From: Zygnema cylindricum
Taxonomy: Eukaryota > Streptophyta > Zygnematophyceae > Zygnematales > Zygnemataceae
Length of the DNA stretch: 64,000 bases
Assembly: GCA_037447655.1 (NCBI GenBank)
Contig: JBBHKE010003261.1
Location: forward strand, 1-64,000
Direction of reading: 5' to 3'
The notes beneath the pieces were generated by a model, which was not told where the DNA came from, did no database searches, and saw nothing but the letters and a program-made list of their open reading frames with translations. The position numbers and the translations under genes were made by a program. This document shows, one piece after another, positions 2,821 through 62,100 of the stretch; the first letter of the stretch is position 1, and each line of letters opens with the position of its first letter.

Positions 2821-4959
2821 TCAAAAATCAAAGCGAGCACGCTTGTTGCAAGGCTGCTTAACAGCTGTCTCCATACCAGTTTTTGTTAAGTTTGACCAGC
2901 GAAAAGGGTCAAACTGCGTGTGACTTAAAATATTTGAAGAAGATCCTTGAGCATTGTTGCCTGGAAGTTGGGAAACAACTGGCCGGAGATGGTCGTTGCA
3001 AAATGGAGGGAAAGATAGCTGACCTGGAAACTGCTGAAGTAGGTCATCTGGAGAGGTTAAGCCGTCTGAATTGGAGAAAAACTGAAACTGATAATCAGTT
3101 TGTACATGAGAATCCAGGGTCGAATTAATGCAACTGAGTTCATCTGTTTGCGGAAACTGATTGGAGACCGGTACATCTTGCAGCTCAGGCAAAATGTAAT
3201 CTGTAAAGCTCATAGTTAATTCACGACTGTGGACATAAGGAGCCCCGGTTTCCATTGGACTTGGAGTCAGACTGTTTATACTTTTCAAACCAGACGCTAC
3301 AATATCTTCGAGGAGGCCACTCGAAAATGTATTATTATTGGCTTTCTCTAATACTCCTTCATCAAAGAGCTGAAGGAGAGCGCTATCTAGTGGAAGACAG
3401 TCCGTCCATAAAAGATCTTCCAGAGAGGCAGTTTGACTGTTGTCATACTTAGGTGCTGAGCCATCTCCGACTGAATTGTAGACAGGATGAGCCATGTCTT
3501 CTCCTGAAAAACTTAGCTGTTCAAGAATGACTCGAAGGGAATCGTCATCATTTGGAGGCATTTGCACCGCCGTAGACTTCTCATCTACATCAGCCGCAAT
3601 ACAAGGTGTCGTGGTCTCGTTGGAAAATAGAGCTACCCATTCTTGACTGCCAACACAGTCGGAGAGAGAAGTCAAGTCAGAGGCCGATGACAGACAGGTC
3701 AGGAGAGGCATGGAGGCACCACTCGGTGTGGCAATGCTGTTGGAGATGGAAGATAAGGGAGAAGCAGTTTCATTTATCAAATCCGAGGAAGATATGGCCG
3801 GCTGCGTAAGACCTTCGAAGCGGCTTTGGAGAGAATTTCTGAAAATCTCATTATTAAACTCCGAGGAATGGGAGGTTGCCAGAGAGGCAGATGGTACAGT
3901 GTCATTATCCTGAAAGATGAGAAGCGACAAAAATGTGAGAATGTGAAGGCGTGCCGAATTCTCAAGTCAAGAAACAAAAAAATAGGAAGTTCGGAGACCT
4001 AATACCTAAAAGAAAGTAGAGAACAGGCATTCACAGAGGGTGTAAAGAAGAGGACAACCTTCAGATACCAATGCCAACAAACCCTAGACTCAAATGCAAT
4101 GAATTCCTGTATTTGTTACTGCCCTAATGCAAACCTAATGACTAGGCAAAGGATGGTCTTACATGAGATGCAACATCACAACCAGCAGCGTTCAGAGGCT
4201 GTTGCTCCCTCCCACAGTCTTCTTGAGTTGCTGCCATGCCGTCGGTCTGCAGTAACACCATCGCCACGTGTCAGCCAGGCAACAAGGCAATGCAGGAGCC
4301 ACGACGTAAGCGAGAAAGCCTGCGAAGGAAAAGTTGACGTCAGCTGGCAAGTCAAGCGACAGTGTCTTCACCTGAGGAGTGTCAGACGCGAGATATCTCG
4401 CAAGGAGCGCGAGGTAGTTCTTCTTGAGAGTGGAGTGCCAGTGATTCTGCATCCGTACAAGAGAAAAGTACGGAGTAAGTCGCCAGAGAGAAGCAAGCAC
4501 AAGCAGAGGCAGGCAGGCGCCATCTCATAGAGCAGCGGCTGCAGTTATGGCGGAGAGCGCGCCACTGACCTTGATGGCACTGTCCGTACGGCCCGGCAGC
4601 CCTCGCGCCATGACCGCCCACTTGGGCCCGAGCGCTGCGTAGGAGAGCACCACGTGGCGGTCCTCCCGGTCCGTGAAGGGCGCCTTGCGCACCATGGGGT
4701 GCAGGTGGTTGCACCATCGCAGCCGGCAGCTCTTGCTGCTGCGGCCCTCCAGCTCCTTCGCTATGTCCCCCCAGCGCCGCGCGCCGCTCGCCAGCACCAG
4801 CCGCCGCAGCCGCGCGTCCTCCAACGCGCTCCACGCGCGCCGCACCGCGTCGCCGCTGCCGCCGCCGCCGCCGCCCGGCCCCGCCGCCCCGCCCTCCGCC
4901 GCCACGCCCGCCCGCCCGCGCCGACGCTTGCGACTGCGGACGTCGGAGATAGACGCCAT
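2821..4959 (-). CDS. R2R3-MYB transcription factor, copy 1 (three coding exons)
   Basis: I read three coding exons on the minus strand: 4570-4959, 4372-4446 and 2821-3909. All introns are GT-AG (donors GTCAGT and GTGAAG) and the reading frame holds throughout, giving about 517 residues. Exon 1 starts with a basic patch (RSRKRRRGR) and a Gly/Ala tract. It then encodes repeat R2 (AWSALEDARLRRLV, then KSCRLRWCNHL) and most of R3 (APFTDREDRHVV, GPKWAVMARGLPGRTDSAIK). Exon 2 completes R3 with NHWHSTLKK. The first R3 tryptophan is replaced by Phe, as is usual for plants. The family binds DNA in the nucleus. Exon 3 encodes a 362-residue Ser/Asp/Glu-rich tail that could be an activation region. It shares the motifs MPLLTCLSSASDLT and GLLEDIVASGLKS with MYB copy 2 and ends NKRARFDF. 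I chose the ATG at 4959 because the upstream reading frame is not conserved in copy 2. The family assignment is firm; the subgroup and target genes are unknown. Confidence 0.88.
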
Positions 4960-5260
4960 GCGGAAAGGAGGGAGGGAGGAGTAAGCAGCTGGAAACGTCT
5001 CAAGGGTTTTGCTGCTGGACTTGGAGCCTTGGACGGAGGGAAAACGGTCGAGCGGGCGATCTAAAGGTCGTCGGGGAGGTTGAGGTTGGCTGTGGATCTG
5101 GCACACCCCATACGACAGGCTCGGCCCCTTTGTACGACATCCGGGCCTGGGCGAGCCGGCGTGCCCGAGTGGACGCCGGCGGGAGGCGGGCCGATGTGGA
5201 GGCCCAGGCATCACGCGACGCAATCAAGGGGGGGATGAGACAAAACGACAATGGGCCAGT
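4960..5260 (-). promoter_or_regulatory. GC-rich leader and proximal promoter of MYB copy 1
   Basis: This GC-rich stretch directly upstream of the MYB start codon is closely matched upstream of MYB copy 2 (24043-24325). A small indel (at about 5065 versus 24145) shifts the reading frame between the two. It is therefore unlikely to be coding, even though a frame stays open through it. I see no clear TATA box. MYB copy 3 lacks this region entirely. Confidence 0.5.
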
Positions 5261-18758: not shown

Positions 18759-19633
18759 AGGAACTTAAGAGTAACTTGCCAAAGGTCCGCAAATAAGAGG
18801 GCCCCACAAAGGTCTCGTCCAACCCCGCAAGACGAAAAAAGAAGGAAGTAAAGGCAGAAACCCCGAAACCGTTAATTGAAAGCCCCGCACCGGGGATCGG
18901 AACCTGATTTCTGGCTCTATGTTTGTGTTGTTTTTTTTTTTTTTTGCGTTGGGTTTGTGTTTTGTTTCCTTGGCCAACCAGTCTCCCGCTGGTTGATTTG
19001 CTACTCCCTTGACCTATTGCAGGCTGGAACGCTCACCGGATGTCGTGTGCCACCCGCAGTGTGGAAGATTGAGCACGGCCACCAAGGTGTTCAGGTGGCA
19101 CTCACCCCAAAGGGTCCGGGCGTCCACGCACGGCAACGGAATTTCCAAACCAAGTCCTCTTCTCTGTGTGCAGTAAGTGCAAAAGCCTGATGGCCGACTA
19201 ATGGCACGCCAAATTTGGCGGCAAAGACGGTAGGAGATGGCCACAAAAGGAAAAAAGGAAATCGGCCGAAACTGGCAGAGCCGATTCTGGAAAAACGAGA
19301 GAACGGATGGAGCTGATTTCCCGACTATTAGATTTTTTTTTTGATTACGTGCACACAAAATTTGGCGCCGGATACACGAAGAAAAAGTAAAAAAACCCTA
19401 GCAGGAAGCCATGGCCGAAGCTTCTAGAAGGAAGAAAACTATCGGTTTGTCTCATAAAACAAGAATTTGCGCACGCCCAAATAGTATACATAGTCAACCG
19501 AGAGTAGTCTTGTAGTTTGTGGAACGTGAATACAAAAACATGTTTCCCTGAGGGCTTAAGGAGTTCTCAAGAAAGGGTGTGCTGCCGTTTCAGACTCAGG
19601 AATATGCTGTTTTAATACGTATTTTTTATTTTC

Positions 19634-20049
19634 CTATGCCATGAAGGACAAAGCATTAGCTGCCATAGCAGCTTGCAGTTGGGTGGCCAGCTTAGTAAGT
19701 GCTGATTGACTTTGATGAAGTTTGGGCTTTTTGAAATCAAGATCATACAGATCATTAAGTGGAACCAGATGTATGTGTGGTGAGAAATTTATAATCCTAC
19801 TACTGCCATGCCTACGCGTAAGCAAGGGACTATCGTCCGCATGCCTAGTGCCACCATTTTTGCGAAAACCATGAGATTAGTAAACATATCGTCCAGATCA
19901 AATAAGTAATACATTTCTTTTTTAGGTACTACTAGGGTATGGTCTACTGCCAGGAGATGTATGTCCAAAAAAACAATGTTATTTGAATCTTCAGAAACGA
20001 TATAGCCTGGAATATCTCTATTAATGATTTTAGTAAATATGCTTGCCAT
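19634..20049 (-). pseudogene. Bacterial HIT-family hydrolase, decayed (copy 1)
   Basis: The frame begins MASIFTKIINRDIPGYIV. It continues with FLDIHLLAVDHTLVVPKK and LRVGMAVVG, a textbook bacterial HIT (histidine triad nucleotide-binding) protein. A TAA then replaces the expected acidic codon after VVGL, and one base is missing in the HxHxH triad. The sequence resumes in the next frame as PHIHLVPLNDLYDLDF and runs to a stop at 19634. Combined length is about 138 codons, normal for the family. Intact members hydrolyse nucleoside phosphoramidates and related substrates. The broken triad makes this copy inactive. It lies directly downstream of the greA remnant on the same strand, an order commonly seen in Bacteroidota. 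Confidence 0.88.
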
Positions 20050-20127
20050 TTCAAATAACAATAAACAATCTAAAAATAGAGTAAATATTTTTTTTTTACC
20101 TCAAGCAGTCTGTTTGTGCTACAAGTG

Positions 20128-20602
20128 TTATAGTCCAATCTCAATAATTTTGAATTCTAGCTTTCCAGAAGGTGTATCAATGCTTGCCACTTCTCCTACT
20201 TTTTCCCAAGAAGTCCTTTGCCAATAGGGGATTCAATAGATATTTGTTCTGCTTTCAAGTATGCTTCTTCTTCAGCAACAATGGTATAAGTAAAAGAATT
20301 CCCTTGTTTGGTATTTTCGATTTTTACTTTGGCGAAGATAGAAACCTGCGAGAAATCAATATCAGCTTTTGAAATTATGTGTGTGCGTTTGCAACTGCTT
20401 GTTCTAGGTTGCTGATTTTCGCTTCCAGCAATCCTCGAGCATCTGTAGCTGCATCATACTCAGCATTTTCGCTTAGACCGCCCTTGTTACGAGCCTCAGC
20501 TAGCTGTTCCGCAATACTGGACCTTCCTTTTGTTCTTAAGGTATGCAGCTCGCCTTTGAGCCTTTGTAATCCTTCTTCGGTATAGTATGATATTTTTTCC
20601 AT
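20128..20602 (-). pseudogene. greA: Bacterial GreA transcription elongation factor, decayed (copy 1)
   Basis: The sequence starts MEKISYYTEEGLQRLK and continues with TKGRSSIAEQLAEARNKG and LSENAEYDA, the N-terminal coiled coil of bacterial GreA. The YYTEEGLQ start followed by TKGR is characteristic of Bacteroidota. The first frame stops after 75 residues. A one-base loss shifts the reading to a second frame (20172-20374 region) with the C-terminal domain, including KVKIENTKQG, YTIVAEEEAYLKAEQISIES and PIGKGLLGKK. A second one-base loss shifts again to VGEVASIDTPSGKLEF, ending at 20128. Total length matches the usual roughly 157 residues. The Asp of the G-D-L loop needed for RNA cleavage is Gly here. 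No plant nuclear gene is expected to look like this. It sits 78 bp upstream of, and on the same strand as, a HIT-family gene remnant. Confidence 0.9.
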
Positions 20603-22023
20603 AACTATGTGGATTCTATGCGTATTTGCTCTTAAAAATTTATACTACTAGACGCTAGTAAAAAACACATACCATACCTTTGTTTTTTTAGGTATATGAT
20701 GCAAGGGAGTAACAAGGGCCTATCATTATCCGGCACGCTTGTTGGCCAAAGCAATTAGGTTATTTATTAAATTTATGCAAGAGCTATTTAATGGCCGGCT
20801 ATAAATAGCAAGACAAAAGCACCAATAGCAAGCCAAAATTCATAAATACTTAGTGCCGGAATTTTAGGTGTATTTCAATGAAATGGCATTTCAATTCAGT
20901 GCGGATAAGATACGTTGACAGTGCAGTGTCTGTCAAGGCTTCTAGCAGCGGCGAATCACTGGTCGTGAAGCGCACTCCAGCCGACCGCTCGTGCACAGCT
21001 GCAGGGCCTCCATGTCAAGGCTCAACACCTCGGCTCCAGAATGGATAAGACAACACCAGGTGAATGCTGGAAATGGTGCGGAATGGTGTGCGCTGTACCA
21101 GCATATATATTCGCGACGCTGGACTGTGGAAGAGTGGACCAGCTTGTGAGATGCAAAGATGACGCATTATGCTACCATCCTCACGCAGGAGGGGAAATAT
21201 TACAAAAGTAATTTCCAGGAATTTGCCCGTCTCCTTTTAGATGGATAGTCCAAATCAAAGGTTACTAAAAATTACGAAAATGTTCCAAGTGTTCCCATAC
21301 AAGTACATGAAACCATCTAATGGCAAATAAGAAACAAACAGAAAGGGATCAGATCACACATAGAGATAACAAGCTCATGAAAAAGTGTCCACATCATCAT
21401 GACATAGTATAGCTTAAATATCAAACGGCCAATATTACAAATTTATAATTAAAATCAGTTAAAACATGACGAGCAACATACATAACTTCTGTTCAACAGA
21501 TACTCACGAACTACGTCTCAATATGGCACATGGAAGATCTGCTCAACATCGGGACGGTAATAATGCACTACCAGCTAATACCATATTTTAAAACACTAAG
21601 ACTTTACAATTGAAGTTGCTAAACAAGGTGAAAAATCCCCTGTAAAAAAGAAGTAACCTCTTTCAAATAATGTCACTGTCAACTTTCCACTACCGCAGGA
21701 GCAGAATTAGCTCAAAAACACACAAATGCTTGCGGTCTCAAAGAAGCGCCAAATGCTTCTAAAATGGGGTAAGGCTACTGAAGATGTATGAAAAACATGT
21801 TTCAAGAATAAACGTCAGAAAAAGGTCAGAAAGACCTTCAAAAAGAAACAGTTTTAGATACTATGGTCCACTTCCTTCTCATCCAATGGGGATAGAGTCG
21901 GAGCTGACAACTAAAACTGAAAAGAGCTAAAAACTACAAATAATTCACCTTATTTCTTCCAATGCAAACCACTCCGATTTGAGGGAAAAAAAAAATAGTA
22001 CACAACCATTCCCCTCAGGGAAC
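20603..22023. other. Upstream flank of greA remnant and 3' flank of MYB copy 2
   Basis: The first 270 bp next to greA may still be bacterial: on the minus strand a short frame around 20720-20850 reads SRPLNSSCINLINN and is conserved in the right block. I do not recognise it. From about 20900 the base composition changes and the sequence looks like plant 3' flank. No further gene is supported. Confidence 0.3.
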
Positions 22024-24042
22024 TCAAAAAGTGAAGCGGCTCCGCTTGTCACTTATCTGCAAAACATTTCCAAAGCTGTTCCATGACCGTTGATGTTCAT
22101 GCCGTCCAGAATTGAAGGGCTTCTGAGAGGGAGTCTCGGATCCATTCAAAACAACAAACCTCTGAGGGCCGTTGAAAACATTAGGAACTCACTGCTGCGG
22201 CAAAACACGAGCAGGCAAAAAAACACAGGTTTTTCTTGTGACCTGAAATAGTTTCAAAACGAATCGGATGTCTGTCAACATCCTCCACAAATAAGACAGG
22301 ATTTACAGAGTATGAGTTGAGGAGCTCTGCTTCCCCAGACTGTATGAGAGGCACATCTTGAATCTCGGGCAAAAACCAATCTGAAGCGCCAGAAAAAGCT
22401 TCCGCAGGAAAAAAAGTCGAGCCACATTTGCTTTTCAGCCCAGATGACACAATGTCTTCCAGCAAACCACTCGAGGAGTTCAGAAAAGGCAATGAATCTA
22501 CTTTCTCCACAGTTTCTTCATCCAGACACTGCAGAAGAGAGCCGTCTAGTGGAGGAAGATCAGTCCAGAAAATGTCGTCCATAACAGCCCCTAGTTCTTT
22601 TTTCTGCTGCACAAGACTCCCTTCCTCGGAAGTGAATTTTTCTCCAAAAGTACAACTGTCAGGGTAAGCTGCATCGTCTCCAAAGTGCATCATCTGGTGA
22701 AGAATTTCCTGAACCGAGACTACATCATTCAGTAGCATCTCATTCGTTTCAAAAGATCCCTGATTGGCATCACCCACATCGCTCACTGTCTCCCCTAAGT
22801 TCAGAGAAATGCTCGACCATTCTTGACCACCGACATTGTCGGAGAGAGCAGTCAAGTCGGAGGCCGATGACAGACAGGCCAGGAGAGGCATGGAAGCGCC
22901 GCTGAAACTGCTGGACGTGAGACTGCCCATGGAAACAGAAGATAGCCGGGAGCCTCTCATGGTCGGTGGGTCTGGGAAGGACTGGTCCAGATTCAGTGGA
23001 GGCTGAGATGCCAAAGAAGACAGCCGGCTTCGGAGAGACTGGCTCCGCAGTTCCTTCTCATTTTGTGGAAAAGAAGATGCTTCCGGCGAGGCGGCGCCTG
23101 GCACGTGATTTCTCTGCAACAGAAGAGACCGCAAGACAGAGCTCAGCGAGAGCCGGAGAATCTTTGGCTGGAATGGAAAAGCAGAGCAGCAAGAAACTGT
23201 TGCCTGAGCTGACTGACGCTCTGCAGATCCAAGGGGAGGTTGCAAGAGTGCAGCGTAGTCCTCACCTGAGGCGGTAGAGTGGATGCGAATGGTCCAAAAG
23301 AAGGTTCCTCAGGCGGGTGGTCTTCACCCTGCTCTGCGAGGTTCTCCCTCGTCTGCATTGCCACGTGGAGGTGTCAGATTGGATGCTGCTTTCCAGCCGA
23401 AAGCACACATTGGCTGCATGCTGGTTTTGGCACCGCCTGCCATGTGGCAGGGAGGCGTTACGTTACCTGGTGCTGACACGCGGACAGGTGCTTTTCGAGG
23501 AGCGCGAGGTAGTTCTTCTTGAGAGTGGAGTGCCAGTGATTCTGCATCCGTACAACAGAAAGGTACAGACTCAGTCTCCAGAGAGAAGCAGGCACAAGCA
23601 GAGGCAGGCAGGCGCCAGCTCATAGAGAAGCGGCTGTAGTTATGGCGGAAAGCGCGCCACTGACCTTGATGGCGCTGTCCGTACGGCCCGGCAGCCCTCG
23701 CGCCATGACCGCCCACTTGGGCCCGAGCGCTGCGTAGGACAGCACCACGTGGCGGTCCTCCCGGTCCGTGAAGGGCGCCTTGCGCACCATGGGGTGCAGG
23801 TGGTTGCACCATCGCAGCCGGCAGCTCTTGCTGCTGCGGCCCTCGAGCTCCTTCGCTATGTCCCCCCAGCGCCGCGCGCCGCTCGCCAGCACCAGCCGCC
23901 GCAGCCGCGCGTCCTCCACCGCGCTCCACGCGCGCCGCACCGCGTCACCGCCGCCGCTCGGCCCCGCCGCCCCACCCTCCGCCGCCCCGCCCGCCCGCCC
24001 GCGCCGACGCTTGCGACTGCGGGCGTCGGAGATGTACGCCAT
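22024..24042 (-). CDS. R2R3-MYB transcription factor, copy 2 (chimeric; possible 31-nt intron)
   Basis: Exons read on the minus strand are 23665-24042, 23467-23541, 22193-23113 and probably 22024-22161. Exons 1-2 are almost identical to MYB copy 1 up to about position 23498, just after NHWHSTLKKNYLALL. Exon 3 is strongly diverged from copy 1, keeping only short blocks (MPLLACLSSASDLT, GLLEDIVSSGLKS, LPEIQDVP). Read straight on, the frame stops at 22181, giving about 461 residues. If the 31-nt GT...AG segment 22162-22192 is removed, it continues in frame for 45 more residues ending SDKRSRFTF. That ending resembles the NKRARFDF end of copy 1, and the total becomes about 503 residues. The role is presumably that of a nuclear DNA-binding regulator. 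The tail differs enough from copy 1 to suggest a different activity. What is uncertain is the true 3' structure. Confidence 0.82.
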
Positions 24043-24325
24043 GCGGAAAGGAGGGAGGGAGGAGTAAGCAGCTGGATACGTTTCAAGGGTTTTGCTGCTG
24101 GACCGGGAGCCTTGGACGGAGGGAAACCGGTCGAGCGGGCGATCTACAGTAGAGGTCGTCGGGGAGGTTGAGGTTGGCTGTGGATCTGACACATCCCATG
24201 CGACAGGCTCGGCCCCTTTGTACGACATCCGGGCCTGGGCGAGCCGGCGTGCCCGAGTGGACGCCGGCGGGAGCCGGGCCGATGTGGAGGCCCAGGCATC
24301 ACGCAACGCAATCAAGGGGGGGATG
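24043..24325 (-). promoter_or_regulatory. GC-rich leader and proximal promoter of MYB copy 2
   Basis: This is the counterpart of 4960-5260. A continuous frame from a Met near 24339 reads into the MYB start here and would add about 99 residues. Because that frame is broken in copy 1, I treat it as untranslated leader. Confidence 0.45.
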
Positions 24326-24875
24326 AGACAAAACGACAATGGGGCCAGTTAGGTCACTGGTTTGGAAAGGTACAGTACTGCTGTGGAGTCACGAAAAAGA
24401 CAAACTGTTATGATGAAAGCTTAATAAAACACTTTTTTCTTGTCGTTTATTATTTGTCGTTTGTTTCAAGCTATAGTTGCGGTTTCTGCGTGCGTTTACA
24501 CGCACTAAATTAGCAGAAAAGTTTAGTTCGTAAACTACCCGAATAATACGTGTTCTACTTGCGAAAGTAAAAATAGGTTGAAATGCCGACGGGATTAGCA
24601 TTCGAAACCGTGATGACGTGGCATCTGGTTTCGCCCCTTATCACAGCTGAGGAAAATTTAAACAGGTTTGGAAATTAAATGCATCTAGACCGATGATTCT
24701 GAAACAATGAACGTATCCGATTAGCTACTCTTAAATAGGATGTAGTAATTGATTTGTGCTCTTCAAATTCAGTTATGAACACAGTAATACAGTTATATAA
24801 TTCACCGTACTAGGGTTTGTCCCATCGACTCCAGGGCAAATCATTCGGCCAATAAAAAATCGATAAACTCAAAAC

Positions 24876-37119: not shown

Positions 37120-37800
37120 CATAATTTTTATCCTCTAAAGTCAAATCATCCTCAGGCCTTCCTAGATAATGCACTTGTCATAATATAGTATCGCCGACCT
37201 TGAACCGTCTCATAATTTTTATCCTCTAAAGTCAAATCATCCTCATGCCTTCCTAGATAATGCACTTGTCATAATATAGTATCGTCGACCTTGAACCGTG
37301 GACCAGCCCAATCTATTACCCATCTGTGGACTTCAAGTTCTATAATTATTGAGGGATCCAATTCCAATTCTCCTTCAGTTGGTCGAAGATTTGCTGGTTT
37401 CAATTGGCTGATGTGTATCACTGGATGAATTTTTGTTGAAGGCGCAAAGTCCAATTTGGTAGCAACTGACGATATCATCTCGATTACAGTAAATGGTCCA
37501 ATGTATTTAGGAGCAAATTTCCCCGTAGGATCCGATTGTCCCTCGATCTTGCACCTGTAATGAGTTGTAGAAAGCCAAACCTTGTCACCTGTGCGTATCA
37601 CCCAATCACCCCGTTTGCGATTAGCATTTAATTCTTGCCTCCTTTGTGCCTCCACTAATGCATCCCGGACAGTTTTCCAAACTGTTTGAACGTATTCCCA
37701 AAACTCTGTTCCAGAACCTCTATTCTCTTGAGTGACCCTTGTTTTTAAGTCTAATTCTTCTCTAGGTTGGTATCCGTATGCAACTTTAAATGGTGAGAAT
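37120..37800 (-). pseudogene. Ty3/gypsy retrotransposon integrase C-terminus, remnant
   Basis: The minus-strand translation gives PFKVAYGYQPREELDLK, then ALVEAQRRQELNANRKRGDW. After these come DKVWLSTTHYRCKIEG, GKFAPKYIGPFTVIEMIS and HPVIHISQLKP. This is the C-terminal end of a Ty3/gypsy integrase, followed by a chromodomain-like tail (VDDTIL..., VHYLGRPEDD). The open part spans 37269-37655; the rest is readable across small breaks. At 37120-37300 an approximately 90 bp piece of the tail is tandemly repeated. No reverse transcriptase or gag is seen nearby, so this is a dead fragment. Confidence 0.8.
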
Positions 37801-37832
37801 CATGTACTAGCATGTTTACATGAATTGTACTG

Positions 37833-38350
37833 GCACGCCAAATTGGGCGGCAAAGACGGTAGGAGATGGCCACAAAAGGAAAAAAGGAAATCAGTCGAAA
37901 CTGGCAGAGCCGATTCTGGAAAATACGAGAGAACGGATGGAGCTGATTTTCCGACTATTAGATTTTTTTTTTATTACGTGTACGCCAAATTTGGCGCCGG
38001 ATACACGAAGAGAATGACAGAAAACCTGAGCAGGAAGCCATGGCCGAGAAAGCCGCCGGCGAAAAAGCAATTCTTCGCAACACGAACTGATTTTTGACGG
38101 AAGATGACAATAAGTGCAAAAATTCTGATGGCCGACTAATGGCACGCCAAATTGGGCGGCAAATGTGGGAGGAGATGGCCACAAAAAGAAAAAAGGAAAT
38201 CGGCCAAGTAGCATAGCCGATTATGGAAAAACGAGAGAATTGATGGAGTTGATTTTCCCACTAATAAACAGATTTAAAAAAAAAATCCTTAGAGTACATG
38301 CACACGAAATTTGGCGCCGAATACACGAAGAAAAAGTAAAAAAACCCTAG
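37833..38350. repeat. Tandemly doubled segment of about 300 bp
   Basis: The stretch beginning TGGCACGCCAAAT (37833 onward) recurs at 38142 onward. The left block has it once, at 19199-19400. It directly precedes the bacterial greA-HIT remnant in both blocks. Confidence 0.65.
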
Positions 38351-38582
38351 CAGGAAGCCATGGCCGAAGCTTCTAGAAGGAAGAAAACTATCGGTTTGTC
38401 TCATAAAACAAGAATTTGCGCACGCCCAAATAGTATACATAGTCAACTGAGAGTAGTCTTGTAGTTTGTCAAACGTGAATACAAAAACATGTTTCCCTGA
38501 GGGCTTAAGGAGTTCTCAAGAAAGGGTGTGCTGCCGTTTCAGACTCAGGAATATGCTGTTTTAATACGTATTTTTGATTTTC

Positions 38583-38998
38583 CTATGCCATGAAGGACAA
38601 AGCATTAGCTGCTATAGCAGTTTGCAGTTGGGTGGCCAGCTTAGTAAGTGCTGATTGACTTTGATGAAGTTTGGGCTTTTTGAAATCAAGATCATACAGA
38701 TCATTAAGTGGAACCAGATGTATGTGTGGTGAGAAATTTATAATCCTACTACTGCCATGCCTACGCGTAAGCAAGGGACTATCGTCCGCATGCCTAGTGC
38801 CACCATTTTTGCGAAAACCATGAGATTAGTAAACATATCGTCCAGATCAAATAAGTAATACATTTCTTTTTTAGGTACTACTAGGGTATGGTCTACTGCC
38901 AGGAGATGTATGTCCAAAAAAACAATGTTATTTGAATCTTCAGAAACGATATAGCCTGGAATATCTCTATTAATGATTTTAGTAAATATGCTTGCCAT
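38583..38998 (-). pseudogene. Bacterial HIT-family hydrolase, decayed (copy 2)
   Basis: This is a near-identical copy of the HIT remnant at 19634-20049, with the same in-frame TAA and the same single-base loss in the histidine triad. Only a couple of residues differ near the C-terminus (QTAIAANALS here, QAAMAANALS in copy 1). It is followed on the same strand, on its upstream side, by the second greA remnant. It cannot make an active enzyme. Confidence 0.88.
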
Positions 38999-39076
38999 TT
39001 CAAATAACAATAAACAATCTAAAAATAGAGTAAATATTTTTTTTTTACCTCAAGCAGTCTGTTTGTGCTACAAGTG

Positions 39077-39551
39077 TTATAGTCCAATCTCAATAATTTT
39101 GAATTCTAGCTTTCCAGAAGGTGTATCAATGCTTGCCACTTCTCCTACTTTTTCCCAAGAAGTCCTTTGCCAATAGGGGATTCAATAGATATTTGTTCTG
39201 CTTTCAAGTATGCTTCTTCTTCAGCAACAATGGTATAAGTAAAAGAATTCCCTTGTTTGGTATTTTCGATTTTTACTTTGGCGAAGATAGAAACCTGCGA
39301 GAAATCAATATCAGCTTTTGAAATTATGTGTGTGCGTTTGCAACTGCTTGTTCTAGGTTGCTGATTTTCGTTTCCAGCAATCCTCGAGCATCTTTAGCTG
39401 CATCATACTCAGCATTTTCGCTTAGACCGCCCTTGTTACGAGCCCCAGCTAGCTGTTCCGCAATACTCGACCTTCCTTTTGTTCTTAAGGTATGCAGCTC
39501 GCCTTTGAGCCTTTGTAATCCTTCTTCGGTATAGTATGATATTTTTTCCAT
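39077..39551 (-). pseudogene. greA: Bacterial GreA, decayed (copy 2)
   Basis: This is the second copy of the greA remnant, about 18.95 kb away in direct orientation. It carries the same two frameshifts and the same Asp-to-Gly change in the cleavage loop as the copy at 20128-20602. It has a few private substitutions: GARNKG for EARNKG, AAKDARGLLET for AATDARGLLEA. The private changes show that the two copies have been evolving separately since the block duplication, while the shared lesions predate it. Confidence 0.9.
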
Positions 39552-40962
39552 AATTCTGTGGATTCTATGCGCATTTGCTCTTAAAAATTTGCACTACTAG
39601 ATGCCAGCAAAAAACACATACCATACCTTTGTTTTACACCATACCTTTGTATTTTTTAGGTATATGGTGCAAGGGAGTAACAAGGGCCTATCATTATCCA
39701 GCACGATTGTTGGCCAAAGCAATTAAGCTGTTTATTAAATTTATGCAAGAGCTATTTAATGGCCGGCTATAAATAGCAAGACAAAAGCACCAATAGCAAG
39801 CCAAAATTCATAAGTACTCAGTGCCAGAATTTTAGGTGTATTTCAATGAAATGGCATATCAATTCAGTGCGGATAAGATGCGTTGACAGTGCAGTGTCTG
39901 TCAAGGCTTCTAGCAGCGGCGAATCACTGTTCGTGAAGTGCACTCCAGTCGACCGCTTGTGCACAGCTGCAGGGCCTCCATGTCAAGGCTCGAAACCTCG
40001 GCTCCAGAATGGATAGGACAACACCAGGTGAATGCTGGAAATGGTACGGTATGGTTTGCGCCGTACCAGCATATATATTCGCGACGCTGGACTGTGGAAG
40101 AGTGGACCATCTTGTGAGATGCAAAGATGATGCATTTTGCTACCATCCTCACGCAGGAGGGGAAATAATACAAAGTAATCTCCAGGAATTTGGCTGTCCC
40201 CTTTTAGATGGATAGTTCAAATCAAAGGTTACTAAAAGTTAGGAAAATGTTCCAAGTATTCCCATACAAGTAAATGAAACCATCTAATGGCAAATAAGAA
40301 ACAAACAGAAAGGGATCAGATCACACAAAGAGATAACAAGCTCATGAAAAAGTGTCCACATAAACGGCCAATATTACAAATTTATAATTAAATTAAGTTA
40401 AAACATGACGAGCAACATAAATAACTTCTGTTCAACAGATACTCACGACCTACGTCTCAATATGGCACATGGAAGATCTGCTCAACATCGGGACGATAAC
40501 AATGCACTACCAGCTAATACCATATTTAAAAACACAGACTTTAAAATTAAAGTTGCTAAACAAGGTGAAAAATCCCCTGTAAAAAAGTTAATTTGAAGTA
40601 ACCTCTTTCAAATAATGTCACTTTCCACTACCGGAGGAGCAGAATTAGCTCAAAAAACACGCAAATGCTTGCGGTCTAAAAGAAGCGCCAAATGCTTCTA
40701 AAATGGGGTAAGGCTACTGAAGATGTATGAAAAACATGTTTCAAGAATAAACGTCAGAAAAAGGTCAGAAAGACCTTCAAAAAGAAACAGTTTTAGATAC
40801 TATGGTCCACTTCCTTCTCATCCAATGGGGATAGAGTCGGAGCTGACAACTAAAACTGAAAAGAGCTAAAAACTACAAATAATTCACCTTATTTCTTCCA
40901 ATGCAAACCACTCCGATTTGAGGGAAAAAAAAAATAGTACACAACCATTCCCCTCAGGGAAC

Positions 40963-41874
40963 TCAAAAAGTGAAGCGGCTCCGCTTGTCACTTATCTGCA
41001 AAACATTTCCAAAGCTGTTCCATGACCGTTGATGTTCATGCCGTCCAGAATTGAAGGGCTTCTGAGAGGGAGTCTCGGATCCATTCAAAACAACAAACCT
41101 CTGAGGGCCGTTGAAAACATTAGGAACTGACTACTGCGGCAAAACACGAGCAGGCGAAAAAACACAGGTTTTTCTTGTGACCTGAAATAGTTTCAAAACG
41201 AATCGGATGTCTGTCGACATCCTCCACAAATAAGACAGGATTTACAGAGTATGAGTTGAGGAGCTCTGCTTCCCCAGACTGTATGAGAGGCACATCTTGA
41301 ATCTCGGGCAAAAACCAATCTGAAGCGCCAGAAAAAGCTTCCGCAGGAAAAAAAGTCGAGCCACATTTGCTTTTCAGCCCAGATGACACAATGTCTTCCA
41401 GCAAACCACTCGAGGAGTTCAGAAAAGGCAATGAATCTACTTTCTCCACAGTTTCTTCATCCAGACACTGCAGAAGAGAGCCGTCTAGTGGAGGAAGATC
41501 AGTCCAGAAAATGTCGTCCATAACAGCCCCTAGTTCTTTTTTCTGCTGCACAAGACTCCCTTCCTCGGAAGTGAATTTTTCTCCAAAAGTACAACTGTCA
41601 GGGTAAGCTGCATCGTCTCCAAAGTGCATCATCTGGTGAAGAATTTCCTGAACCGAGACTACATCATTCAGTAGCATCTCATTCGTTTCAAAAGATCCCT
41701 GATTGGCATCACCCACATCGCTCACTGTCTCCCCTAAGTTCAGAGAAATGCTCGACCATTCTTGACCACCGACATTGTCGGAGAGAGCAGTCAAGTCAGA
41801 GGCCGATGACAGACAGGTCAGGAGAGGCATGGAAACGCCGCTGAAACTGCTGGACGTAAGACTGCCCATGGAAA
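40963..41874 (-). pseudogene. Truncated 3' fragment of MYB copy-2 type
   Basis: This stretch is nearly identical to exon 3 (from its GSLTSSSFSG region) and exon 4 of MYB copy 2. It includes the 31-nt GT...AG segment (about 41101-41131) and the final SDKRSRFTF coding end. It lacks the DNA-binding exons altogether: similarity stops abruptly at about 41874, where unrelated purine-rich sequence leading towards the flavodiiron exons begins. The remaining open frame starts at a Met at 41869. It would encode only the acidic tail, without any MYB repeat. It is the right-hand end of the second 18.5 kb block and is best read as a breakpoint fragment rather than a gene. Confidence 0.8.
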
Positions 41875-42129
41875 CGGGGCTTATGCGGGCAGAAGGGTAT
41901 CGGTTTTTGAAGTGGGGATGGAGTTATGTTGGAGGGAGTTTTGTGGGGAAGGGTTGGAAGGGAAGGGAAGGGAGGAGGAGGTAAATGCAGGGAACTGTTG
42001 GAGAAGAGGCGTTTTAAGGACGATATGGTTTTTGTCTGTATTGGAGCTAGGGGGAATTATGAAGGGAATGGTTATCTAGGGGTCTTGTGGGAAAGAGTTC
42101 ATAGGGGAACAGGAGAGAGAAGAAATTTA

Positions 42130-44461: not shown

Positions 44462-47400
44462 CCCTGGCCCATGACTATGGTTTGCGACATCAATTAGGGA
44501 TGGCCACTTGGGGAGGTGGGGAAGCCATGGTCCATGGTATTTGTGCTTTCCCTGTCCGGAGGTCTCCCAAGATGATGTCTCGGATCCTTTACTACAGTGG
44601 TCCTGGACGCTTCCTTTTCAGACCTTTTGTCTGCTCTCTCACAGATGCTCCAGATCTTCCATTATGTGCAAGCCTTTTGATCCTTCACCAATCGCCTATT
44701 TTTCTCGCCACGTCACGGCTCGGTTTCTCTCTTCTCTGTGATTGGTGGTCGTTAGGGTGACTCCAGGAGGACCTTTAGTCCCCCTTGATATTTCGGCTTG
44801 CAAGTTTCAGCTTCCGGTTTCCCTCCTGCCTCGCCTTCAGAGAGTGACGTCACACACGTTATCTGCGCAGTAGAGCCGATCCCGCCGTCAATTTTTCCTA
44901 GTCTTTATATTCTGGCAGCCGAGCCTGTTGCCTCCTCTTCTCCTACTTCTCCCACTTTCTCCCCTCCCCCTCACGGTTTCCAGAGGCCCCCTCTTCCTAA
45001 GCTAGGGAGTCCACGGGGCTCGAGTTCTTTTCTAATTGAGTTTCTTGACTCTGTTATTCAAAACCGATTTCTTCCAAATAAAAGACCTTTCCGAGCTTCC
45101 TGGCCCTTTGAAATTTTGACCACCACCGACCTTCTCCTTCTCAGACATGTCCCTTCAAACCCATATTTTTCTATTGTCTCCTTCCACCTACGATGATTGC
45201 CAAATAAACATCCTCCTCTATTTGTTGAATCACAGGGCCATTGACCTACAGCCTGGCCACGTGGAGGGTTTTAGGAGCCTCTTCCCCTACCGGAGAATGG
45301 GAGTTAGGTTTAATACCTATGGCACAATCCTGTTCTTGATCTGAGGGAAAGTGAGTCTTACCCCATCAACATTCATTTCTTGTTTCTTAGCTGGGGTTAG
45401 CCTGTCTTGTTCTTGCTGCCATACCCTCATATCTCAGACAATGTCTTCTCTTTCTAGCAATCTCTTTCGTAGTCTCTTTTTGGAGAACCGCGACTGAACA
45501 AGATATTATTGCTGTGGATGATATTCGTCCATTGACAGTCAAGCAATTTGGCAGTGGCTGTTTTCGCATTGATTTGGATGTCATCGTGCACACTTACTGC
45601 CGATATTCTCTCAAGAGAAGCCCCAATAACCCCTCCCTCTCGTTCTTTCATCAACAATGTTTCACTGGGACTTTCTGGCACTAAGAAACTCTACATCTTT
45701 ATTCAATGGGATGCTGCTGTTATATATTGTCACTGTAGTCCACAACCCCGCGCTGTCCAAGGTCAGGGATTTTATGGTCTAGGACCACATCTAGAGGTTT
45801 GGTTAAGGTAGGGCTTTTCTGTTCCCATAGACAACATTCGTAGTTTTTTATTGCTGTTCTTCATCTGCCATTATCTAACATGCTGCAGGAAGAACAATCC
45901 ATTTTAAACCATCTGCATGAGGACAAAAGAAAGAAGAACCAGCACCAAACCAGATGAACTCACACAAGATCAAACAAACAACATGCAAATACCTCAAAAA
46001 ATAGCAGAAAGGTGGAACTGATGGAGGACATTATGAAAAGAACAACACTGAGATCGGTCACCACTCAACATTAGAGACATCCATCTGAGATATTCGCACA
46101 TCTCACAGACTATTTGCACACCCCACAAAGTTCCACCGCCTGTAAGTGCCTCAGAGCAGTGCTGATAAAGCAAAAGACCACCCAAACCCCCCTCATTTCC
46201 TCATACGGCCATGTACATCCATCACACAAAATTATCTTTATCCTTCAGAAAATTAAACAATTGCAACACAACTTTCCAGTGAAACAACCTACTCGGCGCA
46301 GGAGAGTCTTAACCAACTGGAAAAAGAAAAAGAAATGCTAGCTATTTATGAGTGACACCTGTCCACTGTCTGTTCTGCAACAAGACAGCAAAAGCTGATG
46401 GGGGGGACTGCCAGTTTCACACATCCTCTCCCATGCAGTTATAATATAATAATAAAGAAATAAACAACTGCAAACCTAACAGAAAACCAGGAGAATTTTA
46501 CTTTTGAAAAGTGGTTCTACCTGGAAAAAAGATAACATAATCAAACCTATAAACACAACATAGTCACCTCCTTATCTCGGTATGAACAAAAACTTGTTCA
46601 TAAAAACGCAAACGTTAAGCGTATCTAGAAAGGAAAGCACTATGAAACTAAACTATTTGAATTTTGACAAAACAAATAAAAATCAGCTTGAAAGAAAACT
46701 CTAGTCAAACCATGCTCCCAAACCTCTTAGAGCCTATAATAAGAATAACCTAAGCAATGTGGCATATCTGAGAGAAACTGTCAGACCATATAGACCTGAA
46801 AGGAAAAAAACATGTAAGACTTCCGCATTTACTGACGCAGAAAAAAATGCATTTGCTTTGGTACAAACCCTTCTTGTTAAGGAATTCAAAAATCGAAGCG
46901 AGCACGCTTGTTGCAAGGCTGCTTAACAGCTGTCTCCATACCAGTTTTTGTTAAGTTTGACCAGCGAAAAGGGTCAAACTGCGTGTGACTTAAAATATTT
47001 GAAAAAGATCCTTGAGCATTGTTGCCTGGAAGTTGGGAAACAACTGGCCGGAGATGGTCGTTGCAAAATGGAGGAAAAGATTGCTGACCTAGAAACTGCT
47101 GAAGTAGGTCATCTGGAGAAGTTAAGCTGTCTGAATCGGAGAAAAACTGAAACTGATAATCGGTTTGTACATGAGAATCCAGAGTCGAATTAATGCAACT
47201 GAGTTCATCTGTTTGCGGAAAATGATTGGAGACCGGTACATCTTGCAGCTCAGGCAAAATGTAATCTGTAAAGTTCATAGTTAATTCGCGACTGTGGACA
47301 TAAGGAGCCCCGGTTTCCATTGGACTTGGAGTCAGACTGTTTATACTTTTCAAACCAGACGCTACAATATCCTCGAGGAGGCCACTCGAAAATGTATTAT

Positions 47401-56163: not shown

Positions 56164-59100
56164 TCACTCTTTACTGGATGATGACGCCGCCTGCTTCTTT
56201 CCTTTCTTCTGACTCTGCTTTATTTTCGTGAGACCCGGCGCCGTAACCTTCACATTCCCAACCATGGCCGCCACGAGCTCCGGCTCTGTCACTGCCTTCA
56301 TCAGCTCCTTCTCTCGAGCACTTGCGTCGGGCAACCGCGAAAAAACCTCGATCGCCGTTTTTGCCGCTGACCCAGCCACAGAATGACAACAGAAAAGGCA
56401 CAGACCTCAGAAACCTTAAAAGACATACAGGAAATAAATGAAAAGATAAACTCGGTGTAAAATTTTGACAGCTTCCGAGCATTCGATATGATTTGGATTC
56501 TTACGTTATGAAAAAGATCGACAGGGAAACATGATATCTATTCAAAGATTTATCATCACAACCACCATTGTTTCCTTCTTTCAAAAGCACCTCTGCATCC
56601 CTTCTGACTGACCTTTTCCCTTTTTCCCAGATCCTGGCGTGAGCTTCACCCTGTATTTATACCCCTGCAGTGCGCTATACGGTGCACAAACCGGAACTGC
56701 ATAGAGCAATATATCGTTTGGTTTTGAGATTCCAGTCAGCATGTCCTGCTCCGTCAACTTCACCTCCTCTCCCACTTCCTGCACGTTTTCCTCCTCAAGT
56801 AACCTTCCAATCTCAGCTTCGGCTAGTTTTCGTTGCGCTCTACGACTAAGTCCTTCCCTCATCTCCTTCTCTTCCCTGCCAGGTTCCTGCATTTTGTCCA
56901 AAACATTTCGGTCTTCTCTATATTCCGTGTCCTCGACGTCAAGAGCCATGTCTCCTTCTCTTGAGATTTCCTGATCTATCCCAATGTACTTGTTACCTTC
57001 TTGAGATTGACTCTTCAAAGTCAAGTTCTTTGACTCTACCCGCTCATTTTCTGCTGGAAGTTTGACATTTGTGGGACATTCTCGCGCCACGTGACCTTCT
57101 TGTTGGCATTTGTAACATATTGGCAAAGGCTTCACTGAGTCTGCACCGAAAAATATGCACAGTAAATCCTGTGAGGCATGACTGCAAGGCCATGGGCGTG
57201 GAGAGGGGTTCACGGTAGGCTTTACAAAACACATTTAGCCAAGTGACATTTGTCGTTACACAACAGTACAAGAGACGAGTCACTCGATTATTCACAACTG
57301 CTATTCAGGATTCAGTTCGATGGACCATCGTCAGGGCTCTTTTGAGCTCTACCAGGAGGTAAATGGTGGGGGAAAGAGACCAAGAGGCTTCCAGAAAGGT
57401 TCAAAAGTTTGCAACTTCAACAGACCATTAGGTGAGAAAAACAGAAATCGAAACCCCGTTTACTCTTCTCCAACCAAAAAAATAAAATCAGTTGAGCACA
57501 AGAAAGGCCGTTGAACCCAAAATCACAAAAACTAATAATAATATCGCCTGTAATATTGCCATCACAATTCAAACATATTTAGAAAAAGCTCATCTTAGCC
57601 TTTAAAAAAGAGGAATTTCAACATCCCAGCCCAAGCAAGAAACAAAGTGAAAGCACCAGAACCTGAATACAATTAACAGAGATCTCCTCATCAATTGACA
57701 AGTTCCGCTGATTCAGTATGCCCCCTAAAAACAAAAAAAACCTTCGTAAGAACATACCTTTTGCCTTTTCTTGAATTGTTTTAGCTCCTTTCCCTCCCTT
57801 TTTAGGACCCAGAACTGTACTTTGTCCGGAATTCTTCGATTTATCTGGACGACCTTCTGACTGTCAACTCGTACAATTCAATTACAGAATCAAAGAACAA
57901 AAAAAAAACAAGAACGCGGCATGAGTAAACATCATTTGCAAACTGACTCCCGAGATAAAAACGAACAGATTTTCTTCACAATATTAAAAAGATGGGAGCA
58001 TCTCTACTCCAGGAAAAAAAACTATCACTGACACTGGAAAAACTATGTTGTATAGGCTTTTCCATTCGTAAACAAAACGTGAAACAGAAAATGGTTCAGA
58101 AATAACTCACTCCTAGCAGTGCCATGGTCACTCTTCTCTCCTCCTCATCTTGATCTCTGTATTTCTCCTTCACTTTCTTCATTTTGCCTCGTTTTCCACG
58201 ACCGACCTTAATTCCGTCACTATCCATCGTCCCACTCCCCCCTTCGTCCCCCTCTCTCTCTTTCCCACTCGCTTTATTGGTCCTTCTCCCCCTCTCTTCC
58301 TCCTTCAAACGCTCCCCACTCTCCACTGCCTTTCCCTTTCCCCTGCCTCCTCTCCCTGGACCATCAATTTCCTCTATTTTTATGTCAACCTCTCCCTGTC
58401 CTTCACTATTTCCAACCCCCCCTTCAACAACCTCCCTCCCAATGTCTCGTCCCTCTTCTTTGCTGCCATCAGGTGTTTCCTCTCTGGGAATGTCCCCAGC
58501 AAGTTTATCTCTGCTTTCATCTCCTATTCCCTTTTCACCTCCTCCATCTTCCTCATCTCGCACATCTCCTCCTTTCTTTGACCGTCTCCTCTCCACTTTT
58601 GACACATATGGCCTACTTCTAGTCGACACTTGAAGATTTACCGGCAAAATCTCAGCTCCGACCTTCCCACTAGCCTTCTCCTCCTCCCCACCAGCTTGGT
58701 CGAGCCCATACTTGTCTCTCCCCCTTGAGAGCCAGCCCTTCCCTGAAAAAGCTTCATCGAGCAACTCATCCAACTCTGCCTTCACGCCATCCTCATCGTT
58801 TTCTTCTATCTCATTACCTTCCCCGACCCCTCCTCCTTCTATCTCTTCACCTGCATTTGTCTCTCTTTCTTCTGTCCTACTACCTTCATCAATCTCTCCG
58901 CTAACCTCTTCCTTCCCCTCAATGTCTTCAACACTACCTCCCTCATCGTGATCTGAGTCCCTCTTCCCTGCCCCTTCATTCGTTTCACTCTCCTTGTCCT
59001 TTCCCTTTACCTCCTCCCACTCCCCCTCTTCATCCTCATCCTCATCCTCATCCACATCCCCGTCCCTCAAGGTTTCTTCCTCCCTGTTCGCTGACGCGCT

Positions 59101-62100
59101 CCCCACCTCTCCCTCACCTTCCTCTGCCTCTCCCCTCACCTTCCTCTCATTCAAGTGTGCCCCCAGACAGCTGTCATCTACTCGAAACATCATCGCAAAC
59201 CCCATCACCAATTGATTGGGCGGCAAAAAGTTTTTCTTCCCGCGAATCATAAAACTTCCTACTGTCAGATACTCCCCCGTCGGTGCTGTTTTTGACACCT
59301 GATTTGGGTACACCCACCAAGCACTTGTGACAATTTTGGAGTCCCATGCGGCGCTTCGGCAGACAGTAAAAGCTCCCGCCTGGTTGATAGAAAGAGGGGG
59401 GATTGCAGCCGCGGGATTGTGGTTCTTTATAACGGTACTGGAAGCTCCATGAAGGTCAGCATGGACATATCTGAGAGCGACACATGGCACAAGAGGGGCC
59501 AAAAGCAGCCCAAGGAGCATACATATCAGGACACGCTGGATAGAATCTGAATAGGAATCGGGACAAGCTGACATCAGGAGAAGGCAGGGAAGTGAAGGAC
59601 AGGACAAGGTTCAGATAAAATATTCTTACAGGTCGCCTTTTCCAAGATATCGTTTCACGACAAGCTCATTCTGCTGAGCGTCACGACCACTGATAACGAG
59701 GAAATTTTCACTTGTCACAAACCAGTTGAACTTCTCAAACCAGTGGACCTTTCGGAGGTGAGAAATGGAAGCCACGACTTTTGCCTACCCTCAAGGAATA
59801 GCAACACACGCATTCAGCAAGCATGAAAAAAAAATGATTAGTGAAGTACACTATGAAAAAGCTTTTGTAGTCAGAAAACGTCAAGAGAGATAACTGAGTG
59901 TCAAAAGACTATAACAGACATGAAAAAAGAACATCAAGCCTTACTTTCGCAACTATATTCTGTGACCAAAACTGGAAGAAAAAAAAAGTCAGAAGCCATC
60001 CTGGCTCCTCTTCTCCCTCTGACCGCCAAAATATCAACTCCCACCACAAACAATCTCTTTCCCTTGCTCCAAAACTAAAATCCTCGGAAAAACTCCATCA
60101 TGCATGGCCTTCTGCATAAACTTAGGACATAACTAAAGCCTGTTGGCCTTCTGGAGTACGTAAGAAAGGGAGAACAGGAGGCAAAGGGAGGGGGAGGGGG
60201 GGGAAGACAAAGACCTGGGCTAGTTGTTGCTGTGATTTTTTAGCCGCAGCTGCAAATGCCTGCTTATGTGCCGCCACAGTCTTCTCTCTCTTTGCCTCGT
60301 GCTTCTTTTTGGCGTCAAACCACATTCGGGCATTTCCATAGGCTGTGAGAGAAAGGTCCACCTCCACCTGGCAGGAGGGGAAAAAGGGACGGAAAGGGAA
60401 TGAGATCGATCACCAGAAACAGAAGATACCACACTAAGACAATGATGATCACAAATTCACCAAAAGTTTCAGCAAACATCACAGCCTCTCCTCTGAAATT
60501 AACATCTCAACGCAAATGACAATAAGAGAGCAGTCTTACAAAGTCTTGGCGCCTTTCCCTTTTGCTGTTATCGTTTCCCCTAAAGTACAACTACACATAA
60601 AACAACACAGACCTTCATCACCGGTGCTGTCCTTTGTTCGTCATCCATTTCGTCCAAGTTATTAGCAAGAAGAAGAGTGATTTGGTTCTTTTCCAACTGC
60701 ATGCTGTGAATGAGCCCTGCCACAGGATTACCGGCCTTCCTCTCTTCTTTCACCATCCGCTGTAAATCCCCCCAATTCATCCCATTCGCCAAAGCCGCGC
60801 AAACTGCCTTTATGGCCGCGTCCACGTCTTCCAGGTTGTACTCGATCAGGGCGCCTTTCTGCACCGACACATCCACTTCATGCGCCAGCTGTTCTGCTCG
60901 CTTTGTCTGCCAGAGAGAGGGAAGGAGGGAGGGAGGGGGGAAGTGAGAGAGAGGAGGAGAGAGGGGCGAGAGAGGAGAGAGGAGGAGAGAGGGGCGAGAG
61001 AGGGGCGAGAGGGGAAGAGGGAGCGGGAGAGGGAGAGGGAGAGGGGGAGGGAGAGAGAGAGAGAGAGAGAGAGCACATGACAGCTTAATTCTGTATCGAA
61101 GACACATTCTTAGAACATGGAAACATGGGCTTCCACCCATATTGCGCTTTTTTTTTTTTAACTGAAGAAATGTATCAAATTTGCGTGAAATACATCCCAT
61201 GTGGAAAAGGACGTTCATCCCACCAGCAACCTGCTAAAAACGGAGTCTACTTGTGCCTAACAAAAAGTTGCCGAATTACCAGGTGTCACACTATATGCTG
61301 GAGGTCACTATGCTGCGGGACATCCCAGTGAAACAACTCAAACAATCAGAGGTGCTTCACCCAAATGATGTGTTACCTATCCAGGAAAATCAAATTTTGA
61401 GGTAATAGAAAAAAAAAAAAACAGAACAAGTGAAAACTGTATCTCTATTTTGAAAAGATCCCTACCCCAAGTGTGCATTTCATTTCTATCCTTATTGCTC
61501 ACAATCGCCCAAAGCTGACAAAGGCAAAAAAAAGGAGCCAAACCTCTCTCTCAAAAAGAAATTATCAAAGGTATTGCTAACAAGATTAAACAAATCGAAC
61601 CGGAATTGTCCAAATTCCACTTGCCACAAAATGCACACAAATTACAGTAAATGGCGTTAAAAGGATCCACTCACCTGATCTGCCCGAATCTTTTCTAGCT
61701 TCGCCATTGCTTGGTTTTCTGCCGCTGCCCGATGTTGCATGGCTCTTTGACCCTCAATTTTTGAAAAAAAATCGTCCATTGCGGCATCAAAGGTGGGATA
61801 AACCAAATTCTCACGACCCATGTACTGACACAGGAGGATGGGAGTAAACTCGTCAAACATCTGCAACAACAGAGAAGAAGGTCATGAAGAGAGTTTTGAG
61901 TAAAAATGCATGTGATTTAATCAGTGACACTTTCTCATTCCATGCTGTTTATGAGCAAAGTGATTACGCTCAATCAAACACATGTTTTTGCTTTCAAATG
62001 TGTGTATGAACCACAAAAATATTCCTATAAAATTCACATCAAGAAATGCCAAGCCGTGTTCCTTGTCAATTTCCCACAGCTTACCTTTCCGGAGGTCATC

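Follow-up and report, generated by a model that had tools for sequence, protein, structure and literature searches.

A piece of bacterial chromosome some 1.4 kb long, of Amoebophilaceae type, has with little room for doubt been captured in a green-lineage nuclear genome beside an array of R2R3-MYB genes, and has since decayed and been duplicated, probably with gene conversion between the copies and without serving any function. The fragment, found in the window (the whole 64,000-nucleotide stretch analysed here), is bacterial in origin, sits within a host contig, has been duplicated, and carries gene-breaking lesions that are common to both copies. The symbiont that supplied it very probably lived inside cells, either those of the host or those of another organism dwelling in or on that host. 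In the history that we propose, a stray piece of symbiont chromosome would have been captured during double-strand break repair and would have decayed neutrally before the block around it was duplicated about 19 kb away, after which patchy gene conversion between the copies may have followed.

Extent and decay of the bacterial fragment

Copy 1 of the fragment (19479..20862, minus strand, ~1.38 kb) was delimited by DNA alignment to the Amoebophilaceae locus L082. It opens with the end of an upstream gene, which a 188-bp gap separates from greA; a 78-bp spacer then leads to HIT, and approximately 160 bp more follow. The first-pass annotation had described adjacent greA and HIT frames at 19634..20602, separated by 78 bp; the two remnants do lie side by side there on the minus strand (NF001263, Pfam), with 78 bp from the greA stop to the HIT start, but the bacterial segment extends beyond this pair and takes in the end of a third gene.

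The interval 19580-20862 is collinear with L082 (genome G018) at 74.1% DNA identity over 1304 columns, in coding and intergenic DNA alike, and shorter stretches align with L084 (69.0%, 1245 columns) and L083 (68.4%, 1235 columns). Past HIT, the likeness to L082 continues to about 19479, with 1 of 500 shuffles scoring as high for 19636-19565 and none of 500 for 19564-19420. The same two intervals were not significant against L083 (198 and 36 of 500 shuffles as high) or L084 (407 and 96 of 500), so that the outermost 100 bp of the fragment rest on one relative. Likeness to L082 was absent in 19470-19300 and in 21000-20863, the right end of the match being 20862.

The upstream gene is represented by its last 24 codons (20791..20862, minus strand, located by tblastn) and, to judge by eye, encoded a membrane protein; in the relatives this small gene lies directly upstream of greA. 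The tail is 75% identical to that of L082, 71% to those of L084 and L083, and 59% to that of L085, each of which adjoins greA. The gap between the two genes measures 188 bp in the window and 183 bp in L082 (stop codon counted), and the greA-HIT spacer (20050..20127, minus strand) 78 bp against 80 bp in L082, L083 and L084. On this layout the fragment is read as one piece of chromosome, not as two genes acquired apart.

Two lesions, an insertion of 2 nt (20384-20385) and the loss of 1 nt near 20203, have broken the greA pseudogene (20131..20602, minus strand) into three pieces in three frames (20378-20602, 20199-20387 and 20131-20199). Read through these lesions, the protein exceeds the cut-off of NCBIfam equivalog NF001263 (148.3 bits, with 145 required) and matches both Pfam GreA domains. 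The HIT-family (HinT-like) pseudogene (19637..20049, minus strand) is left in two pieces in two frames (19792-20049 and 19637-19798), the first of which passes Pfam HIT at 24.2 bits (cut-off 21.5); chance is not a possibility as the source of the GreA and HIT matches. Its lesions comprise a 3-nt deletion near 19888, a GAA to TAA nonsense change near 19788, a 1-nt deletion near 19780 and a further 1-nt gap near 19660, at the extreme end of the gene, and the histidine-triad motif (HxHxH region) is damaged. The spacer is also gapped near 20070 in both copies relative to three bacteria. Every indel found in 19634-20602 by alignment with these three bacteria, as well as the TAA stop, is carried by both copies of the fragment.

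The earlier reading of two frames encoding GreA and HIT therefore stands for their identity and falls for their integrity, neither gene being intact. A functional bacterial-type GreA would need an intact frame, and both copies contain the two frameshifts; a functional HIT/HinT hydrolase would need an intact frame and histidine triad, and has neither. Judged from these lesions, both genes are dead, no GreA or HIT protein would be made, and the fragment has no function that can be proposed. What had been called an operon-scale transfer is accordingly integrated DNA of symbiont type, but a dead fragment and not a working operon.

Changes specific to the window number 29/21/47 at the first, second and third codon positions, compared with 12/5/50 on the L082 branch, when L083 serves as the third row (Fisher p = 0.001); with L084 as the third row, the numbers are 28/17/40 for the window and 13/7/49 for L082. 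This pattern is as expected of constrained bacterial evolution followed by unconstrained decay. As a rough estimate, some 20 changes per 287 sites at each codon position, or ~7%, would have been unconstrained if the L082 ratio holds for that portion of the branch which was bacterial. Nuclear residence might also show itself as CpG decay, but no such signal appeared, with 3 of 21 CpG sites changed as against 64 of 349 sites elsewhere.

Source of the DNA and its route into the host

The protein search and tree placement proposed by the first-pass annotation returned best matches that are bacterial. Among the 120 matches listed for each protein, GreA reaches up to 77% identity and HIT 72-74% identity to the best database proteins, and one close HIT match (P0124) is named Amoebophilaceae bacterium. 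The DNA is bacterial rather than plastid, mitochondrial or host in origin, and plasmid records yielded two remote greA matches. The true donor is not among the sampled genomes, since the closest bacteria differ by ~22-28% in protein.

The gene order had been presented as common in Bacteroidota, and so it is: among the matches listed in a genome scan, 72 of the 80 loci retained have greA and HIT in this order, on the same strand and within 600 bp. Being general in Bacteroidota, the order is no marker of Amoebophilaceae, and it is the flanking gene tail together with the tree, not gene order alone, that point to this family. Amoebophilaceae loci were fetched with the GreA profile, greA being present in 21 of 21 genomes of the family of G001. 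HIT adjoins greA in 10 of the 21 Amoebophilaceae rows and was not found in 11, one of them cut by a contig end (the count omits L086, which is the same locus as L001). Ten of these donor-family loci (L089-L098) lack HIT beside greA in the fetched stretch, a split of the otherwise common Bacteroidota pair. The local order of small upstream gene, greA and HIT is common to the window and L082-L085. With the Amoebophilaceae pair (L082-L085, L001) the fragment shares its gene order, spacing and small upstream gene; unlike that pair, which is intact in the bacteria, it is broken.

The HIT tree, built from 25 rows, groups the window with six Amoebophilaceae rows at 99/99, and with L082-L084 at 98/96. 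The GreA tree has 38 rows (L086 and L101 omitted, 17 outgroup loci picked from 79); there the window joins L082, L083, L084 and the long-branched L091 at 94/92, a fork that is not starred. A wider grouping, of the window and 16 family rows, has support of just 86/43, in a bootstrap that had yet to settle. The divergent family rows L088, L099, L100 and L102 fell outside the main group in both trees. Placement inside Amoebophilaceae is supported strongly by the HIT tree, and the GreA tree agrees more weakly. The suggested neighbourhood of Amoebophilus and Cardinium is borne out by this HIT tree and by DNA collinearity that takes in two genes, the third-gene tail and two intergenic gaps.

The draft genomes G018, G019 and G020 are ~0.9-1.1 Mb long, the size of reduced symbionts, and from the family and these small drafts we infer that the donor was intracellular. 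Whether the host lineage once housed an Amoebophilaceae endosymbiont of this small-genome clade (G018-G020) in its own cells, with the fragment as its fossil, is evenly balanced in our judgement; if true, the host range of the Amoebophilaceae would extend to the green lineage. The host cells are presumably walled and not particle-eating. Known hosts of the family are amoebae, arthropods and nematodes, and one study reportedly concerns the Cardinium of a nematode. These known hosts lend something to an indirect route, in which the DNA came via an amoeba, fungus, nematode or virus carrying Amoebophilaceae DNA and not from the host's own symbiont, but the plain bacterial gene order has been kept with its intergenic DNA and no third-organism flanking sequence was recognised in the window, and we consider such a detour rather unlikely. 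Contact of the family with green algae is made plausible by a 16S study of the cultured green alga Ostreobium, which gives Amoebophilaceae as 7.01% of the bacterial community (PMC10497448).

The fragment records contact between a Bacteroidota endosymbiont family and a green-lineage nucleus. Wolbachia insertions occur in insect nuclear genomes and likewise consist of intracellular-symbiont chromosome fragments in host chromosomes, but their hosts are animals and their donor belongs to another phylum. The closest known case is the rickettsial insert of Volvox carteri: the nucleus of V. carteri EVE holds an insert of ~9 kb with four rickettsial gene-like sequences, and 13 strains were compared (PMC4324946). 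Both cases concern multi-gene endosymbiont DNA in a green nucleus, compared for synteny with the symbiont; in contrast to the Volvox insert, the present one is ~1.4 kb long, has an Amoebophilaceae donor, is duplicated and comes from one assembly. In the mitochondrial genome of the fern Haplopteris, 30 degenerate Rickettsiales regions have been described (PMC10027690). There too, intracellular bacteria are the source of decayed coding regions in a plant genome, whereas here a single fragment, from Bacteroidota, lies in nuclear DNA.

With the Volvox case, the kind of event is already known; among the papers listed by searches of the open-access literature, none reported Amoebophilaceae DNA in the nucleus of a plant or alga, or an Amoebophilaceae donor for a green nucleus. 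Neither a new mechanism nor a new function comes with the fragment. It provides a marker that is testable in the host's relatives, and a warning against taking every bacterial-looking gene in such an assembly for contamination.

Host contig and the question of contamination

The contig is 176,059 bp long without any N, in an assembly of 352,776,454 bp and 2689 contigs. The R2R3-MYB gene adjoining copy 1 lies at 22181..24339 (minus strand, from its ORFs), with Pfam Myb domains in 23620-24339. Further MYB units are present at 2821-5223 (Pfam Myb domains in 4525-5223, and repeat identity) and at 46886-49051 (repeat identity), and a unit at 41120-41869, also recognised by repeat identity, is seemingly truncated inside its last exon. 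These belong to an R2R3-MYB array that takes up 1-49100 of the window, where 1142-4959 matches 45202-49024 at 96.7%. The bacterial pair had been described as lying between MYB genes; the insert in fact has its nearest MYB neighbour on one side only, and the last long frame of that gene ends at 22181, ~1.3 kb away. Exons of a NEMF/Rqc2-type gene follow at 56581..59607 (minus strand; Pfam NFACT-R, NFACT-C and zinc knuckle). In the rest of the contig, the four frames tested gave another MYB, a MATH-domain protein and two copia-type frames (RVT_2; integrase region). A search with the window MYB protein brought up no close relative: its best match shows 58% identity across 21% of the protein, and none of the 120 matches listed covers more than 44%. 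The R2R3-MYB genes place the host in the green lineage. At the level of the assembly, the fragment is thus contiguous with host nuclear DNA, in a 176-kb contig with MYB and NEMF exons. The window contains no RNA families at the gathering score and no tRNAs.

Directly left of the insert lies a host repeat (19199..19418, plus strand, 92.3%), with a third copy at 37828-38047; its match stops at 19418, which places the left junction within 19419-19478. This repeat of ~220 bp, also present at 38137-38367, borders the insert and contains an ATG frame that comes after a TGGCGCC motif. By eye, the repeat is possibly the start of an LTR retroelement, and it may be part of the integration site. The tail of a Ty3-type polyprotein (37269-37655, minus strand; Pfam SH3_Tf2-1) adjoins the second block. 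An 83-nt repeat, family D3, is scattered in six diverged copies over 7751-31508.

Algal cultures are often not axenic and the joins here are known from the assembly alone, as would suit an assembly chimera or contamination in which reads of culture bacteria became fused to host DNA. A search of the 352.8-Mb assembly with the insert DNA found at least two matches, both in this contig. GreA protein gave four matches among the 10 candidates scored, all at the two copies and none elsewhere. For the third probe, the donor IleRS (TIGR00392, 956 bits, cut-off 621), 16 candidates yielded six short matches of 39-47% identity. Five of these share a contig and the sixth lies on a different one; they are read as the host's own exon-split genes. 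The counts from these assembly searches are lower bounds, and no match is no proof of absence; taken by themselves, the three probes (insert DNA, GreA and IleRS) are compatible with a small contaminant. Further bacterial DNA in the same contig was sought with 155 ORFs of at least 100 codons, drawn from a small part (119 kb) of the G018, G019 and G020 genomes; greA and HIT gave the only matches.

Contamination is nevertheless very unlikely, because the same frameshifts and stop are shared by both copies in a diverged duplicated block, greA, HIT, flanks and MYB are continuous in both copies of a 176-kb host contig, and the assembly yielded only these two copies, no other GreA and no donor-like IleRS. 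Decay, the position of the copies in a host duplication and the lack of a donor genome by the three probes all speak for DNA that belongs to the host. The conclusion of the first-pass annotation that the DNA is integrated, and not a stray contig join, is upheld by the lesions common to both duplicates and by the finding in the assembly of two copies only, both in this contig.

Divergence between the two copies

The duplicated host block with copy 1 (19171..22936, no strand assigned) is partnered by 38108-41875, at 95.1% over 3808 columns with 103 mismatches. Copy 2 of the fragment (38428..39830, minus strand) is displaced by +18,949, in agreement with the 18.95 kb given earlier, is 96.7% identical to copy 1 and has the same lesions. 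Integration is probably older than the duplication, and some lesions could have spread by conversion afterwards.

Divergence along the block is patchy. In 100-bp steps, no substitution occurs in 19771-20370, 21771-22170 and 22371-22770, elsewhere a step contains as many as 8, and at the far left the counts reach 9 and 17. These substitution-free stretches, flanked by up to 8 changes per 100 bp, resemble gene-conversion tracts. The 969-bp greA-HIT stretch has 6 differing sites between the copies, against 87 of 2001 ungapped sites in three neighbouring stretches.

That the host uses GreA or HIT, or that selection keeps this patch, would fit such low divergence but is scarcely credible, as the non-coding spacer is unchanged too (0 of 78), the MYB end, which the comparison omits, differs little as well (8 of 756), both genes are frameshifted, HIT has a nonsense codon and a damaged active-site motif, and gene conversion accounts better for the low divergence. 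Coding selection on the patch was accordingly rejected, the spacer being equally unchanged and low-divergence stretches lying beside and in the MYB gene. Gene conversion within the repeat array seems the simplest cause of the patchy divergence, better than selection on broken genes.

On another contig, C2447 (L110), the same pair of long frames occurs at 135842-136503 and 140124-140785, on opposite strands and ~4.3 kb apart, with the compared 150 residues identical; this inverted duplication looks like a very recent one, or like an effect of the assembly.
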